From NCBI RefSeq assembly GCF_027531545.1, contig NZ_JAPZSC010000001.1, positions 124,001 to 188,000 of the forward strand: a stretch of 64,000 nucleotides of DNA, written 5' to 3'. A model generated the notes under the pieces. That model saw only the letters and a list, made by a program, of their open reading frames with translations, was not told where the DNA came from and ran no database searches. The DNA is from Silanimonas sp. GTDB lineage: Bacteria > Pseudomonadota > Gammaproteobacteria > Xanthomonadales > Xanthomonadaceae. This document shows positions 34,347 to 42,775 of the stretch, piece by piece (position 1 is the first letter of the stretch; each line of letters opens with the position of its first letter). The translations under genes and the position numbers were made by a program.

Positions 34347-34383
34347 CGCGCGAAGTGTACGCGTGCGCTGCGACCCTCGCGCC

Positions 34384-34800
34384 ATGAACGCTTTCCGCAT
34401 CGCTGTGCTCGCCCTCGCCGGCCTCGGCTTCCTTGGCTTTGGCCTGTGGTTCCTCGCCGACCCCATCGGCCCGCTCGCCGCCATCGGCATCACCGCCACC
34501 GGCGCGCCGGCGGCGACCGAGTTCCGCGCCTTCTACGGCGGGCTGGAGGTGGGCCTCGGCGCCCTGATGCTGGTGGCCGCGACCAAGCCCGAGTGGCGCA
34601 TCGCGGGCCTGTGGCTGGTGATCGCCACCAATGGCGGCATCGCGGCCGGGCGCCTACTCGGCGTGGCCATCGACGGAGTCTGGGTGCCCTTCTTCACCTA
34701 CGCGCTGGTGTGGGAAGCGGGATTCGCCGCGCTGGCGGCCTTTGGAGCATCAGGGCGGCGGGAAGAGCCCCTGAGCATTCGTGGACAAGCCGCATCTTGA
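34384..34800 (+). CDS. Small membrane protein, DUF4345-like
   Basis: 138 residues with four hydrophobic segments. The segment EFRAFYGGLEVGLGALMLVA matches the FYGGLE signature of DUF4345 membrane proteins. It is divergent from rsgA with 37 bases between starts. It ends 2 bases before the stop of the low-GC gene on the other strand, which marks the border of that cassette. No function is known. Confidence 0.75.
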   Translation: MNAFRIAVLALAGLGFLGFGLWFLADPIGPLAAIGITATGAPAATEFRAFYGGLEVGLGALMLVAATKPEWRIAGLWLVIATNGGIAAGRLLGVAIDGVWVPFFTYALVWEAGFAALAAFGASGRREEPLSIRGQAAS

Positions 34801-34802
34801 TT

Positions 34803-35702
34803 TTAGGTCGGCGGCGCGCCGCGAAGGCGCACAATCGTTAACTCAGAGTACAAGGCTACGGCTGTGCCAAAGCGCGCATCGTCCAAAGCACTGCGCATCG
34901 CCTCGCCTAGCGACTGGTTAACTGGACACCCATATTGGACGCAGAACTCAAGAACTGGGAAGGACCGAGCAGCACAGCCGCCGGCGAGATCACATTCAAC
35001 CAGCCTCCCGGCAAGCAGCGCCATTTCATTGAATGTTCGATCATCAAGCCTCTGAGCCAGCCTTATCGCCCTGACGCTATCGGGATAAGCATCCCAGTAG
35101 ACGAGCGCAGCGTCCAATATCTCTGCGCTTGTGGTGCCTTGCTGAAGTCTAGCGAGCGCCTCAAGGGCGGGAAGAGAATCCACCGGCAACCTTCGCGTAC
35201 CGTCGGAATCCTCGACCACGAAGTTGGTGGCAGCGGCCATAAGCGGCGAAAAATGACCCGTCGGACTCTGAACATTGCCCTGCGGATCGAACAGCGGCGC
35301 ACACGCGGGCTGCAGGGCATTCGCCGCTTCCAGTGTCGCTCCCACGCCAGCTTCGAGGCGCACGTTGGTTGCCAACAGCGAACGTGAGCGCCGACAGGCC
35401 TGCGTCAGACGCCCGAAATAGTGAGAGTACTCGATCGAATCCACGCCATAGATTCGTGCAAGATCATTTAGGGCAGCTACGAAGTTTGGCGACTGTTTGA
35501 TTGCAGCAAGGGCCGTGCCTTCGACGGGAGCGTGGGCGCGCGCGGAATCGTCGGCGCGGGGCGCAATTGGGGGCGACTCAACAATAGGAAAGTCGGCAAG
35601 GGCTTCGGCCATGCCCAAATCGCTTTCGCGAGCCGCGAAGAGTGCGACCCCAGCGACAGCCATTAACGTAATGACCAATAGCGTTCGCCGCTTCAGGGAC
35701 AT
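34803..35702 (-). CDS. Unknown exported protein of the low-GC cassette (gene B)
   Basis: 299 residues. The N-terminus (MSLKRRTLLVITLMAVAGVALFAA) is a signal peptide or membrane anchor. The rest looks helical, with paired cysteines near the end (VECDLAGGCAARSFPVLEFC followed by VQYGC). Similar cysteine spacings occur in other unnamed xanthomonad proteins, but I cannot name a family. Its ATG overlaps the end of the upstream gene by 10 bases, so its translation may depend on that gene. Base composition is visibly less GC-rich than either neighbour, suggesting transfer. Confidence 0.7.
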   Translation of the reverse strand: MSLKRRTLLVITLMAVAGVALFAARESDLGMAEALADFPIVESPPIAPRADDSARAHAPVEGTALAAIKQSPNFVAALNDLARIYGVDSIEYSHYFGRLTQACRRSRSLLATNVRLEAGVGATLEAANALQPACAPLFDPQGNVQSPTGHFSPLMAAATNFVVEDSDGTRRLPVDSLPALEALARLQQGTTSAEILDAALVYWDAYPDSVRAIRLAQRLDDRTFNEMALLAGRLVECDLAGGCAARSFPVLEFCVQYGCPVNQSLGEAMRSALDDARFGTAVALYSELTIVRLRGAPPT

Positions 35703-36211
35703 TTCAACGATCCCGCAACTGGAATCTGTTCGATGGAATCGGCTGTTGCGCTAGGCAGGCCGCCGACCGCAATCCATCGCTCCGTTCCACCATCATCATA
35801 GGTGACGAGCACCTCATCCCCTGGGGCCAAACCTTCGCCGCCAAGCAGTCGAAGGGCGGCATACGGAGCAACGTCCTGATGCGCATGCGCGTGACGAGAG
35901 CCGACATCGGCTTGGCATGTGGCAGATGTCGAGTTGTTCGGGTTGTTCGGCACAACAACCAGAATCTGCTCAACGAACCAACCTCCGACATTATCGATGA
36001 ACCAGTCCCTGATGCTTCCCAGTTCCGTGCTGCCAGTGTCAAAACAACTGACTCCATCCGGCTCCCAGGCGGAAGTAATCAATCGACGTTCACCACCTGT
36101 CGTCTGGTAATAGTCGAAGAGCGCATAATTCTGGATACATGTTCTCCCTCCAGAACTAAAGGCCTGGGCAAGACCTAAACTCGGAGCCAGCGTCCCGACG
36201 ACTATAATCAA
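35693..36211 (-). CDS. Unknown exported protein of the low-GC cassette (gene A), 5' end apparently out of frame
   Basis: The visible frame is 172 residues from a TTG: hydrophobic core IIVVGTLAPSLGLAQA, then SGGRTCIQNYALFDYYQTTG and a C-terminal part with EVLVTYDDGGTERWIAVGG and SLKCP. It has several cysteines and probably folds outside the cytoplasm. The TTG has no ribosome-binding site. The good start is an ATG at 36281 with AAGGAG 8 bases upstream, but a C15 run (G15 on the given strand) puts it out of frame. With one C fewer it would give a 195-residue protein with a complete signal peptide. So the gene is either phase-off, or the homopolymer length is wrong. Confidence 0.65.
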   Translation of the reverse strand: MIIVVGTLAPSLGLAQAFSSGGRTCIQNYALFDYYQTTGGERRLITSAWEPDGVSCFDTGSTELGSIRDWFIDNVGGWFVEQILVVVPNNPNNSTSATCQADVGSRHAHAHQDVAPYAALRLLGGEGLAPGDEVLVTYDDGGTERWIAVGGLPSATADSIEQIPVAGSLKCP

Positions 36212-36246
36212 CAGTCGAAACGTTGAGCACAGAGGGGAGGGGCGCT

Positions 36247-36261
36247 GGGGGGGGGGGGGGG
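36247..36261. repeat. G15 homopolymer tract (C15 in the sense of gene A)
   Basis: Fifteen consecutive G on the given strand. On the reverse strand it lies 17 bases after the ATG at 36281 and codes for prolines. The tract length decides whether that ATG reads into gene A. At 15 the reading stops at a TAG at 36156-36158, after 41 residues. Runs this long are unstable in replication and also error-prone in sequencing. Confidence 0.95.
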
Positions 36262-36278
36262 AGTGCGCCGATCAAATT

Positions 36279-36295
36279 CATGCTTTGGTCTCCTT
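36279..36295 (-). promoter_or_regulatory. Strong ribosome-binding site and ATG upstream of the G15 tract
   Basis: Reverse strand AAGGAG-ACCAAAGC-ATG: a near-consensus Shine-Dalgarno at 36295-36290, 8-base spacing, and ATG at 36281-36279. A 6-bp inverted repeat AACAGC/GCTGTT at 36302-36321 lies just upstream in the presumed leader. The quality of this site is the main reason to think gene A truly starts here. Confidence 0.7.
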
Positions 36296-36438
36296 GACCT
36301 GAACAGCTACGAATGGCTGTTGCCAGATCGAAGCTAATTCAAGTTAAAGGTCGCCGCAACCTCGCGCACCCAAAGAACACAATGCCCTGCGTTTAGAAGT
36401 AGTGTTAACGACCACTCTGGTTAAGCTGCCCCCGCCCC

Positions 36439-37683
36439 ATGCTGTCGAACACCCTGCAAACCCGCGAACGCCTTCGCGAAGTCCGTTACGAGATCCGCGG
36501 CGACCTCGCCCGCCGCGCCCGCGAGCTCGAAGGCCATGGCCACAAGCTGATCAAGCTGAACATCGGCAACCCGGGCGCCTTCGGTTTCCGCGCGCCGGAG
36601 CACCTGCAGCGCGCCATCGCCGACCACATCCACGACACCGACCCGTACACGCACCAGCAGGGCCTGCCGCAGGCCCGCGAAGCGCTGGCCGCGCACTACA
36701 AGGCCCGTGGCACGCCGCACGTGTCGCCGGAGCGCATCTTCGTCGGCAACGGCGTGTCCGAGCTGATCGATATCGCCCTGCGCGCGCTGCTGAACCTCGG
36801 CGACGAGGTGCTGCTGCCCAGCCCCGACTATCCGCTCTGGAGCGCGGCGACCATCCTCAACGACGGCATCCCGCGCTACTACAGCTGCCGCGCCGAGAAC
36901 GGCTTCCTGCCGGATCCCGACGAAATCGAGCGGATGATCGGCCCGAAGACCCGCGCGCTCGTGCTGATCAACCCGAACAACCCGACCGGCGCGAGCTACC
37001 CGAAGCCGCTGCTGGAGAAACTCGTCGCGATCGCGGCGAAGTACCGCCTGCTGCTGATGGCCGACGAGATCTACGACGGCATCCTCTACGACGACCACGT
37101 GTTCCAACCGCTCGCGCCGCTGGCTGGCGACGTGCCCTGCCTCACCTTCAGCGGCCTGTCGAAGGTGCACCGCGCCTGCGGCTGGCGCGTGGGCTGGGCG
37201 GTGCTGTCCGGTGATCCGCTGCGCACCGGCGACTACCACCACGCGCTCGACCTGCTCGGCGCGCTGCGCTTGTGCGCCAACGTTCCGGGCCAGTTCGCCA
37301 TCGAAGCCGCGTTGAAGGGCGGCGACACCATCACCGCGCTCACCGCGCCGGGCGGTCGCCTGCATGCCTCGCGCCAAGCCGTGCTGGAGGCCGTGGCGAA
37401 GAGTGATTTCCTCTCGGTCGTTGCGCCGCAGGGCGCGCTGTACGCCTTCCCGAAGATCGACACCGCGCGCCTGCCGGAGTTCGACGACTACCGCTTCGCG
37501 CTTGATCTACTGGAAACCGAGCACGTGCTGATCGTGCCGGGCAGCAGCTTCAACGTGCCCTACCGCGACCACTTCCGCGTGACCCTGCTGCCGCAGGCCG
37601 ACGAGATCAGCGAGGTGTTCCGCCGCATCGAACGCTCGCTGTCGCAGTACGCCGACCGCGGCGGCGCGCGCCAGAGCGCCTGA
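36439..37683 (+). CDS. alaA: Alanine/glutamate-pyruvate aminotransferase AlaA-like
   Basis: PLP enzyme of fold type I, 414 residues. The substrate arm is KLIKLNIGNPGAFGF, the asparagine/proline motif is VLINPNNPTGASYPK, the phosphate-binding region contains LLMADEIYDGILYDD, and the PLP lysine is in TFSGLSKVHRACGWRVGW (Lys242). This pattern is that of AlaA, which makes alanine from pyruvate and glutamate. The SGNH hydrolase gene follows after 4 bases, so the two are probably co-transcribed. Confidence 0.92.
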   Translation: MLSNTLQTRERLREVRYEIRGDLARRARELEGHGHKLIKLNIGNPGAFGFRAPEHLQRAIADHIHDTDPYTHQQGLPQAREALAAHYKARGTPHVSPERIFVGNGVSELIDIALRALLNLGDEVLLPSPDYPLWSAATILNDGIPRYYSCRAENGFLPDPDEIERMIGPKTRALVLINPNNPTGASYPKPLLEKLVAIAAKYRLLLMADEIYDGILYDDHVFQPLAPLAGDVPCLTFSGLSKVHRACGWRVGWAVLSGDPLRTGDYHHALDLLGALRLCANVPGQFAIEAALKGGDTITALTAPGGRLHASRQAVLEAVAKSDFLSVVAPQGALYAFPKIDTARLPEFDDYRFALDLLETEHVLIVPGSSFNVPYRDHFRVTLLPQADEISEVFRRIERSLSQYADRGGARQSA

Positions 37684-38341: not shown

Positions 38342-41300
38342 CTACCTGCAGCCCGACGGCTGCGACAGCTGGCTGACGCTTCGCGCAGAGGGATCGCGCC
38401 ACGACCATTGCACAAGATGCGGCATCCCCGGCACTTTCCCCGAATGTTCGAGCCGCATGCGCTGGATCTTCTCGCCATCGTGCATCACGGACACGCTTCC
38501 GGTATCTGCACGGGCGGTCGTCGGACGGTACGCGCACCATGGACAGGGGCCGTCCAGTCGTGCGGTCGTGAGATCGATCGAGGAGCCGAGTTGGTCGATG
38601 GGCGTTTGCGACCATACCCAGAGCGGACGGCCGAGGTCGTCGTAGAAATAGCTGGCCATGATCGCCTGACGCGTGCCGCGGTCGATCTGCACGCTCCATC
38701 CGTATCCCGGGAGCTCGGGCGCAAACCATAGACCGCTGACATCGAATGGAGGAGCACCGCTCGCACTGGAGAGGCAGCCCGGCCCGCCGAGTCGTTCGAA
38801 ACGCTCGTAGCCGGAACGGCCGTGCAGCGTGTAGCCAAATGCAAAGCTGCTGCCATCAAGGGCATTGACGGAAGCCCACCCAACGATGGAGGAAACGCGC
38901 TTCCCAAGATGCCAGCCAAACTCGATCAGCGGCGCCGTCCAACTGGTCGCGCTGCGCTCGCCGATGTCCGTCATGTACCAGACGGATGAGCCGTCTTCGC
39001 GATAGGTGTACCAGATGAGGACCCAACTCCCCCCGGCGTAGTCGAGGAAGGCGCCATGACCCGAACGCTCGGGATTGAAGTAGTGGCCCGGGACGGGTTC
39101 GACGCGTTCCGCGCCTCCGGTCGTCGTGACGCGCAAGGTCGGGATCGCCGCGGTTGCGCCATGGTTGGTCGCCACCAGATACCACCGTCCAGGAGGCAAC
39201 TGGCTCGACGTCAGCGAAATTGCCTTGGTCGCTCCGGCGGCTTGGATCGATGCGACGACAGGGGCTGGCGGAGCCTCCGACGGATCGTTTTCGGACTGCA
39301 CTGGTGCGCGGATAACCGCCAGCGACACCCCTTCCGCATGAGTCAAGTCGATACGCAGTGCCGACGCGGAGCGGGGGACGTCGAAATAGGTACGGCCCGC
39401 TCGCTCGCCCGGCGAAAGCGCAAAGGGGTGATCGACACCGTCGCGAAGCGCGATCGGCGTGGCTCGCCCTGCCACGCGCTCGATCCGCACCGGCGCATCA
39501 CCAAGGTACACCCCCTCCCGCCAGAACGAGACATCCACAAGGCGACGATCTCCCACAAGCATCGTCGGGTCATTCCACGCGATGCGCGTCGGCCACGGCC
39601 GGACGAAACTCGGCGCCGTCGCCGGTCCGATGACGGTGACACGCGGAGAGCGAGCGACGACGGCGTCACTCTCGAAGATCTCAATGCGTGCTCCCGCGGT
39701 CGAGGCGCCACGGTTGTGCGCGAGGACCCAGTAGGTCTGCGCACCCTGACCGACTTGTCTACTGAAATAGGCGTCGCAGCCCTCCAGGGCCGACCCACCC
39801 ATCGATGCGCAAGCGACTTCGTTTTCGTCGGCTCGTCCATTGCGATTGGTGTCCAGCCCAAGGTACAGAGCAACCGACGCTCCACCCACGACGGCCGCGT
39901 CGGCATGGACTCTCCAGCTGGACGCGATCGACGACGAGTTGGCTGGCACTGTTCTGAATTCAACGTGCGTACCGGCCCCCTGCTCGTCGAACGGCGAATC
40001 GACGCCCGCCGAAGGAGCAATCGTCACGTTCAAATGAGTCGGTGCGACAAGATCGCCAACCTTGCGCTCAATCGGCCCCACAGTGCTGAATGGCTTGAAG
40101 TCGACGATCTGCGAGCCGCTCTGACCTTCGACCTGCAGAGTCGTTCCCGGCGGCACACCCGGTCGCGCGACGATCCGCACATCGGATTCGGAGCACGCGG
40201 TTCCGGCGCGATTGCAGAGGCGATAGCGGAACGAATCCTGGATGGCTGTGAATGCCGTCCGCGGCACGTAGGTCAACGTGCCGTTGCGGTTGACTTGCAC
40301 GCTGCCCGTTGACGGGGCACGTACGATGGTCAAACCGGCGGGCAGCTCCACGTCGCGCGAATCGAAAAGATCGTTCCCGAGCACATCGATCAGCGCATTG
40401 GTGGGTTCGCCTGCAGGAACAACGTTCGAAGGCGGTCTCGCCAACACTGTTCGGTCGGGTCTCGCAAAGAGCAGCGGGCGACCACCCAACGACACCGCGA
40501 TGTCCCATTGGCCACTCGCGGACAGATAACCCGTACCGACAACCTCATACGTCAAGCGGCAGAGGCCGAGGCGCAGGCCCTCGACCACGAGCTCCGCGGA
40601 GGCATCAACGCGGCAAATGTCGGGCGTCAACGATTGCACGGCAAAGCGGCTGTCGGAAGGACCAATCACCACCACTGGGAGAACGCGCGGCACGCCGACG
40701 TCGATAGCCTCTACTGTTGGCGAAGAAAGGCTGATTCGCGGCGTCACACCGTTCCCGACACTCACGCGGATTGCACTCGTCCAGCGGAAATCCAAGCCGT
40801 GATTCGTAGCGGACGAATCGGACACAGCGATCGCAACCGAACGTCCGCTGTCGATGCCGGTCGGCGTACCGCTGATTCGACCTTCGGCATCAAGGGAAAC
40901 ACCGCTGACCAACGTCGTGGGCGTGAACCGGAACGGCGGCGTCGCGCCGACGGCGGAAACCGACAGCTGGCCGCTCACGGGGACGCCCACCTGGAGCGCG
41001 ACATCCGATCCGAACACCGGGAACCTCAGTGGTGGCTGGATCAGCACGTCGCGGCGAGCCGACGCCGGCGCCATCCCGGCGACGCCGTCAAATCTCGCCT
41101 CCAGAGCCACGCGACCGGCATTGGAAAACCTGGCGCTGCAGCTGCCCGTTCCGTCTGCCCGGAGAACCACCGTACACCGGAGGGTTTCGCCTTCGAGGAT
41201 GTGCACGGGGAGATCCTGCATCGACTGAAGGCTGCGCATGCGAACGCTGACGACGACCGACTGGCCGATCGTGGCGACACCTGCTGCAAATGCCGGCCCG

Positions 41301-42484
41301 GTGATTTCCAGGTTCGTCGCCGTGACATCGCCGGGAGGGCCGAGGAGCAGCGCCGGCTCGCGATTTCCTGGCGAGCCCACGAGCACGGCATTGCCGGACG
41401 CGGAGAGCCCGCGCGCGAAACTGCGCCGTTCGGGCGTTCCGATCGGGGGCGCGGCTTCGATGCTGCCTCCAACCTGCCAAGTTCCCGCGTTCGGCGAATA
41501 GAACTTCAGTGCCGAAAGCTCGAGCACGAAGGCACCCCCTGCGGCGAGCGACACCCGACGCAAATCGCCGTCGGCGGCGAACGCGGCGTCAGACGCCACC
41601 ACGGCCCGCTCCACCCATTGCCCCGAAGGGGTGCGCTCGAAGTGACGGACGCCGCGAAGCGTCGGAATCAACAGACGGCCTGCCCGGAAGCTGGCCCCGC
41701 CCCCGTACGCGGACTCGGGAAGCTCATCCCTGAGGATTTCGGCCTCCCACTCCCAGCGCGCGCCACTCCAGCGTAGAGCGTGAAACGCGGTGTAGTCGTC
41801 GTACTTGAGTCCCACGACAGCGCTGTCGCCATCAAGAAGGAGGCTCATCAGTCCGGCAAGCTGATCCCAGGCCTGTGCCGATGGTGCCCGTGCGTTGACA
41901 TCGATGCGCTGCAGAGCCGCCACGCCCGTCACGGCATCGAAGGCGTACAGCGCGCGTTCGTCACGGGCGGCAACGAGCACGTGACGCTCGTTCGCCGCGA
42001 CGCTCGAACCGAAGCCGTCAACAGTGACGGAGGGAGGCGCCGATCCGCGCAACTCTCGCTCGCGAACCCACAAGCCGGACGCCTCGCGAAACACGACAAC
42101 ATCGCCACGCCAGTCGTCCTGACCGTCGAGGTCGCGGGTGGGCTCTGGCGCACCGACGAACAATCGACCACCGGCTAGGGCCAACGCTGTCCCGAAGCGA
42201 CCATCCCACCGATCCTGCGGGCGCAAAGTGGCGGAAAACGCGACAGATCGGCTGCTCGGCTCATGTACGAAAAGGTGAACAGCGTCACCGGCGGGGTCGC
42301 CTACTGCGGCGAACCTGCCGTCAAGAGCCACCGTTGCGCCGTATTCGGGGCTCCCAGCTACCGGAGCCGCAAGGACATGACGCTCGCCAGCCGAAAGCTG
42401 CGCCCAGACAGGCGCCGCGCCCAGCACCGCAGCCATCGAAATCGTCGCGCGAAACGCCGCTCTGCGGATAAAGGTGAAGTCCAT
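38342..42484 (-). CDS. Giant secreted multidomain protein
   Basis: 1380 residues from the ATG at 42484 with a signal peptide (FRATISMAAVLGAAPVWAQ). Residues about 30-330 contain FG-GAP-like blade motifs (YGATVALDGRFAAVGDPAGD and FGTALALAGGRLFVGAPEPT), suggesting a beta-propeller. The middle has Ig-like domains, including a putative-Ig type (LSVSAVGATPPFRFTP, GRISGTPTGID) and a cadherin/tandem-95 type (LIDVLGNDLFD, GTLTYVPRTAFTAIQDSFRY). The C-terminal 270 residues carry two related Trp/Gly-rich modules (HYFNPERSGHGAFLDYAGGSW and LWFAPELPGYGWSVQIDRG). No anchor or secretion-system signal was seen. Adhesion or binding is a guess. Confidence 0.8.
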   Translation of the reverse strand: MDFTFIRRAAFRATISMAAVLGAAPVWAQLSAGERHVLAAPVAGSPEYGATVALDGRFAAVGDPAGDAVHLFVHEPSSRSVAFSATLRPQDRWDGRFGTALALAGGRLFVGAPEPTRDLDGQDDWRGDVVVFREASGLWVRERELRGSAPPSVTVDGFGSSVAANERHVLVAARDERALYAFDAVTGVAALQRIDVNARAPSAQAWDQLAGLMSLLLDGDSAVVGLKYDDYTAFHALRWSGARWEWEAEILRDELPESAYGGGASFRAGRLLIPTLRGVRHFERTPSGQWVERAVVASDAAFAADGDLRRVSLAAGGAFVLELSALKFYSPNAGTWQVGGSIEAAPPIGTPERRSFARGLSASGNAVLVGSPGNREPALLLGPPGDVTATNLEITGPAFAAGVATIGQSVVVSVRMRSLQSMQDLPVHILEGETLRCTVVLRADGTGSCSARFSNAGRVALEARFDGVAGMAPASARRDVLIQPPLRFPVFGSDVALQVGVPVSGQLSVSAVGATPPFRFTPTTLVSGVSLDAEGRISGTPTGIDSGRSVAIAVSDSSATNHGLDFRWTSAIRVSVGNGVTPRISLSSPTVEAIDVGVPRVLPVVVIGPSDSRFAVQSLTPDICRVDASAELVVEGLRLGLCRLTYEVVGTGYLSASGQWDIAVSLGGRPLLFARPDRTVLARPPSNVVPAGEPTNALIDVLGNDLFDSRDVELPAGLTIVRAPSTGSVQVNRNGTLTYVPRTAFTAIQDSFRYRLCNRAGTACSESDVRIVARPGVPPGTTLQVEGQSGSQIVDFKPFSTVGPIERKVGDLVAPTHLNVTIAPSAGVDSPFDEQGAGTHVEFRTVPANSSSIASSWRVHADAAVVGGASVALYLGLDTNRNGRADENEVACASMGGSALEGCDAYFSRQVGQGAQTYWVLAHNRGASTAGARIEIFESDAVVARSPRVTVIGPATAPSFVRPWPTRIAWNDPTMLVGDRRLVDVSFWREGVYLGDAPVRIERVAGRATPIALRDGVDHPFALSPGERAGRTYFDVPRSASALRIDLTHAEGVSLAVIRAPVQSENDPSEAPPAPVVASIQAAGATKAISLTSSQLPPGRWYLVATNHGATAAIPTLRVTTTGGAERVEPVPGHYFNPERSGHGAFLDYAGGSWVLIWYTYREDGSSVWYMTDIGERSATSWTAPLIEFGWHLGKRVSSIVGWASVNALDGSSFAFGYTLHGRSGYERFERLGGPGCLSSASGAPPFDVSGLWFAPELPGYGWSVQIDRGTRQAIMASYFYDDLGRPLWVWSQTPIDQLGSSIDLTTARLDGPCPWCAYRPTTARADTGSVSVMHDGEKIQRMRLEHSGKVPGMPHLVQWSWRDPSARSVSQLSQPSGCR

Positions 42485-42575
42485 TTCTGCACGTCCAGGG
42501 AACCTGCCAACAGTTTGCAGGGGTGGCGAGACCGCCGCAACAAAGGCCCCCCTTTCGAGCTTGCGCTCCAAAGCT

Positions 42576-42775
42576 GCGTGGTGAAGTCGGGGTTCGACCA
42601 ACCGAAGCCGCTACTGCGGCGCGGGGGGCAGAAAGCATGCGCGAGTGCGCTTCCATGGCCCACGAGCCGGATCAGCCAGCACGGTTCACGGGCTCTACGC
42701 CCCCTACTTCGAGCACGACGCCTGCGGGTTTCGACTGATCGCGTCGACGGACGGAGTGCCGATCCACTTCAAATC
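42576..42775 (+). pseudogene. Decayed duplicate of the gltB leader and 5' end
   Basis: Aligned to 43460-43660 it shares the leader block GCGTGGTGAAGTCGGGG, the start ATGCGCGAGTGCG, and coding sequence that in one frame reads TVHGLYAPYFEHDACGFRLI, then ASTDGVP. The real gltB reads TVRGLHDPSFEHDACGFGLI at the same place. The ATG (42637) and the conserved part are in different frames, and similarity ends near 42775. Many substitutions show it is an old duplicate. Confidence 0.8.

Follow-up and report, generated by a model that had tools for sequence, protein, structure and literature searches.

A C15 tract in the leader of an undescribed gene pair of Silanimonas sp. as a probable on/off switch

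Introduction

The window analysed here, a stretch of 64,000 nucleotides of Silanimonas sp. DNA, contains a tract of 15 C in the leader of a gene that we call A, and the locus is probably a slipped-strand contingency locus captured in the OFF state. The tract is likely to be a natural on/off switch because runs of this kind readily gain or lose a base. We infer that tract length varies in this population and that switching has an adaptive value. Gene A is followed by a second gene, B, and the likeliest role of the two is in the cell envelope or as secreted proteins, as a pair that it pays to express only part of the time.

Switching of this type is already well known as a mechanism. In Neisseria, pilC is phase-variable through a homopolymer in the 5' coding region, while in fetA and porA a poly-C/G tract located between the -35 and -10 elements causes transcriptional phase variation (PMC5320596). 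In the Campylobacter phasome, poly-G/C tracts of at least 7 bases are often found in reading frames (PMC6321876). A literature search combining phase variation, homopolymeric tracts and Xanthomonadaceae returned no papers.

Genes A and B and the elements of the proposed switch

The features of the locus, all read on the minus strand with the exception of the cassette, are the following:

34803-35702, minus strand: gene B, intact, 299 aa, with a hydrophobic N-terminus, a helical body and a conserved Cys motif
35693-36246, minus strand: body of gene A downstream of the tract, with a hydrophobic signal-peptide core, an AQA-type cleavage region and the mature protein
36156-36281, minus strand: 41-codon frame obtained with 15 C, including the stop at 36158-36156 (from the tract-length series)
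36247-36261, minus strand: C15 tract in the leader, the candidate switch element (from the sequence, the run counts and the length series)
36279-36281, minus strand: ATG, proposed true start of gene A, with an MN[RL]IG start common to the homologue of the congener G005
36290-36295, minus strand: ribosome-binding site AAGGAG, read from the sequence
34740-36430 (approximate), no strand assigned: A-B cassette, 1.7 kb, of low GC, delimited by the BLAST breaks and by GC

A and B share 10 bases, at the end of the former and the start of the latter. Neither A nor B gave a significant match against Pfam, NCBIfam, PADLOC, PHROGs or solved structures. The predicted model of A is of low confidence (pLDDT 60), and that of B has an all-helical body (pLDDT 81), for which a fold search against the PDB found nothing at E <=0.001. 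Nine columns of B are invariant in seven aligned sequences, and six of them are Cys. A has a C-terminal domain that is conserved in eight further strong members of the family sample, with the consensus NPNNPxxATCxSD...VTYDDGGTExW...GSLKCP; compared with G005 it shows a dN of 0.32 with dS saturated, a pattern that points to purifying selection on this domain. A seems to be modular, given that its N-terminal half is joined to a DUF4329-like domain in a protein of G132 (L033 4183-4959; score 28.5 for that domain, against a cut-off of 28.6).

The first-pass annotation had placed AAGGAG and an ATG at 36281 ahead of C15, with a gap of 17 bases between ATG (36281-36279) and tract, and these coordinates are correct to the base on the minus strand. 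The 15 C put this ATG one base out of frame relative to A, and the stop at 36156 after 41 codons, also described there, was reproduced when the frame was followed through a series of tract lengths from 10 to 18 C. In this series 11, 14 and 17 C read into gene A and yield products of 194, 195 and 196 residues, and all the remaining lengths give only 22-42 residues. The claimed product of 195 residues is right for 14 C, the products at 11 and 17 C differing from it by one residue, and the read-through sequence given for it lacked one F: the product contains ...PLCSTFRLLIIVV..., with F between ST and RLL. Beyond the tract the frame of A is open down to its stop at 35693.

Under the proposed mechanism, translation of A would begin at ATG 36281 and cross C15 within the signal-peptide leader, and slippage during replication would add or remove C. 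One length in three (e.g. 11, 14 or 17) would link the start to A and give an exported protein of about 195 residues; with the others translation would stop after 22-42 codons. As B starts inside the end of A, less B should be made when A is not translated, by lost coupling or by polarity, and switching probably reaches B through the lost coupling.

Evidence for the upstream start

The intact homologue in the congener G005 begins MNRIGLIRLLVAG..., and the window reads, from the ATG, MNLIGAL, the tract region and RLLIIVV, so that the pattern MN[RL]IG...RLL is common to both. Eight of the 12 bases after the ATG are identical between them (chance probability ~0.001). The more distant homologue of G132, which starts MKRANLRST and has an ordinary signal peptide, aligns with the FSSGGRTC... 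region of the window, and no in-frame Met is present in the window where that signal peptide begins. As had been pointed out in the first-pass annotation, the only start listed in the visible frame of A is a TTG (36211), and inspection of the sequence ahead of it revealed no ribosome-binding site. A start at this TTG would leave a signal peptide lacking its charged end. Taken together, the start of G005, the signal peptide of G132 and the TTG without ribosome-binding site indicate that translation really starts at ATG 36281, which places the tract within the leader; alignment with these two relatives thus supports the upstream ATG as the true one.

How unusual the tract is

G/C runs in the genome were counted by a pattern search, and the expected numbers were taken from a first-order Markov model built on the dinucleotides of the window. 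No G/C run in the 3.82-Mb assembly is longer than C15, and every other one is shorter than 13; the next-longest in the 64-kb window has 7 bases. Sixteen runs of at least 9 were found in the genome (15, 12, 12, 11, 11, 11, five of 10 and five of 9), against a model expectation of about 44; for runs of at least 15 the whole-genome expectation is ~0.014. The locus thus contains a mutable tract longer than chance predicts, as is characteristic of SSR-mediated translational phase-variable genes.

The possibility has to be considered that the true tract is one base different from the recorded one and that gene A is simply intact. An error of one base in assembly or base calling is quite possible, since sequencing is known to have trouble with indels once a homopolymer exceeds 14 bases (PMC8808543), and the genome is a draft of 73 contigs. 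As an account of the whole locus, however, this reading is unlikely, because it leaves unexplained the other tracts and frameshifts at A, among them that of G213, which is a single-contig genome. Moreover, an off-by-one call would alter the recorded state, and the long, slippage-prone tract would remain.

Tracts at A in other carriers

Carriers were located through protein similarity, independently of their tracts. In G184, a genome of 2.6 Mb, the single G/C run of at least 11 bases is a G13 directly upstream of A, located between promoter-like TTGACA and GACAAT with a spacer of 20 bases. In G005 a G11 lies ahead of A, flanked by promoter-like TTGACG and TAGCGT (spacer 19), and its sister G001 has a G7 at the same site (spacer 16 by count); the promoter tract of A is the only one seen to differ in length, G7 versus G11, and this between two sister species. 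No orthologous pairs were found among the retrieved tract loci of G001 and G005 outside A. Two runs of at least 11 were observed at A in six carriers, where about 0.006 would be expected if runs were distributed uniformly and about 0.06 if a factor of ten is granted for their clustering between genes; the threshold of 11 was set after the fact and the carriers are few.

On the other hand, tracts are far from being present in all carriers. No G/C run longer than 5 is found at A in G107, G213, G079 and G034, and no run of at least 7 in the locus of G614 and G429, which brings the total to six of the 12 carriers. No homologue has a tract at the exact position of C15 except for the A7 of G496. The first-pass annotation had held that switching would be refuted by homologues with neither the tract nor the upstream ATG; as a whole the homologues do not look like this, for although none has the C15, tracts of other kinds occur in several and one keeps the start. 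Its proposal of phase variation gains support from the start conserved in G005 and from the relatives with their own long G tracts or homopolymer frameshifts in A or just upstream of it, and phase variation itself is what we infer from them.

C15 was also considered as a promoter spacer and rejected, as no -35/-10-like hexamers surround it; the promoter-spacer arrangement is that of G005 and G184, ahead of A, and not that of C15. A pattern search of the genus for G runs of at least 8 bases within the spacer between -35 and -10 elements gave five matches, while the reversed control pattern gave none. Runs of G8-13 between -35-like and -10-like hexamers, with spacers of 16-20 bases, were noted in the genus and G184 at L029 5459-5469, L030 5463-5475, L077 2487-2497, L080 2532-2542, L096, L097 and L100; judged by their sequence, these are candidate promoter-spacer contingency loci. 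Very long C runs were seen elsewhere too, of 22 bases at L072 2493-2514 (G005) and of 19 at L083 2560-2578 (G107).

A further explanation is that the DNA length is fixed and that a constant in-frame fraction arises because RNA polymerase or the ribosome slips on the C tract. Some bacterial genes exploit slippage at homopolymers, although the survey that describes them deals, in the part consulted, with A and T runs (PMC1088944). Such slippage would not account for the tracts that G005 and G184 have in the promoter spacer at A, and we consider it very improbable.

Frame losses and the question of decay

A is open in eight of the 12 carriers. In G001 its frame is broken at a G8 stretch, in G213 at a G-rich linker and in G496 at the A7 directly after the start codon; in G295 only a remnant of A stands ahead of B. 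The copy of G001 looks dead or decaying, since further lesions are present in both A and B; these extra lesions resemble decay and count against the switch reading. Irreversible decay is the main biological rival of switching: growth of the tract would have inactivated A after its acquisition, and the gene would be a pseudogene in the making. The frequent loss of frame among carriers, the decaying copy of G001 and the remnant of G295 are consistent with it. Nevertheless, it is weakened by the state of the window, where A is open after the tract, with no additional stop or frameshift, and B is intact, so that the further lesions of a pseudogene are absent from both genes. The constraint on the C-terminal domain of A and the intact B of G213 and G496 also argue against decay, which seems rather improbable to us.

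The A-B cassette and its distribution

The cassette sits between a 145-aa ORF (34363-34800, whose end differs here) and an aminotransferase gene at 36439. BLAST alignments with the syntenic sites of congeners break at ~34739 and ~36430, and the GC content between these points is 0.54-0.63, compared with ~0.70 in the surrounding DNA. Of the other seven genomes of the genus, six keep the left and right neighbours and lack the cassette; in the seventh, G007, a different insert takes the place of A-B upstream of the aminotransferase gene (L090), which suggests that the site may be a variable spot. Judging from these breaks and from the composition, the A-B cassette is acquired, a feature that the first-pass annotation had overlooked. 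In G001 and G005 the pair is located elsewhere in the genome, adjoining a P-II-type gene, and it recurs patchily in several other genera. Strong matches to A were found in nine of the 397 sampled genomes of the family, and three more in the order. Weak A-profile matches in many other genomes (E 1e-9 to 1e-3) were left out of the carrier count; the one that was inspected showed no convincing likeness and was rejected as a carrier. A scan of the genome contigs with A and B found no relatives of them, and no further genome of the same species came to light.

Comparison with known systems and implications

Among the closest known types is that of Neisseria pilC, which resembles the window in having its tract in the 5' coding leader (PMC5320596); however, the family of A is undescribed, the host lineage is another one and the tract is known here from one length. 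The fetA/porA arrangement matches the region upstream of A in G005 and G184 and differs from the window, whose tract is in the coding leader. The core phasome of Campylobacter, in the portion of the source consulted, comprises tracts of 7-13 bases in many genes per genome (PMC6321876), whereas the present case is a single 15-base tract in a genome of high GC. What is new, within the literature searched, is the host lineage, together with an undescribed gene pair with tracts at differing positions among its carriers.

A wider reading, which is possible and somewhat doubtful, is that A-B is a mobile, undescribed cassette of the order under recurrent selection for stochastic switching, whose carriers would have evolved the switch independently, by promoter spacer or by coding leader, in a lineage for which the literature searched describes no homopolymer contingency loci. 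Should the switch be real, it would be a new contingency locus of a high-GC genome, carried by two genes that belong to no described family. The recurrence of tracts at a single gene family across several genera would then offer a natural test of whether selection keeps restoring an on/off switch, and it would single out A-B as an envelope trait that merits characterisation.

Elsewhere in the window, an open frame of 1419 residues on the minus strand (38342-42601) matches FG-GAP and bacterial Ig-like domains and is probably, on the basis of these matches, a large surface or secreted protein.
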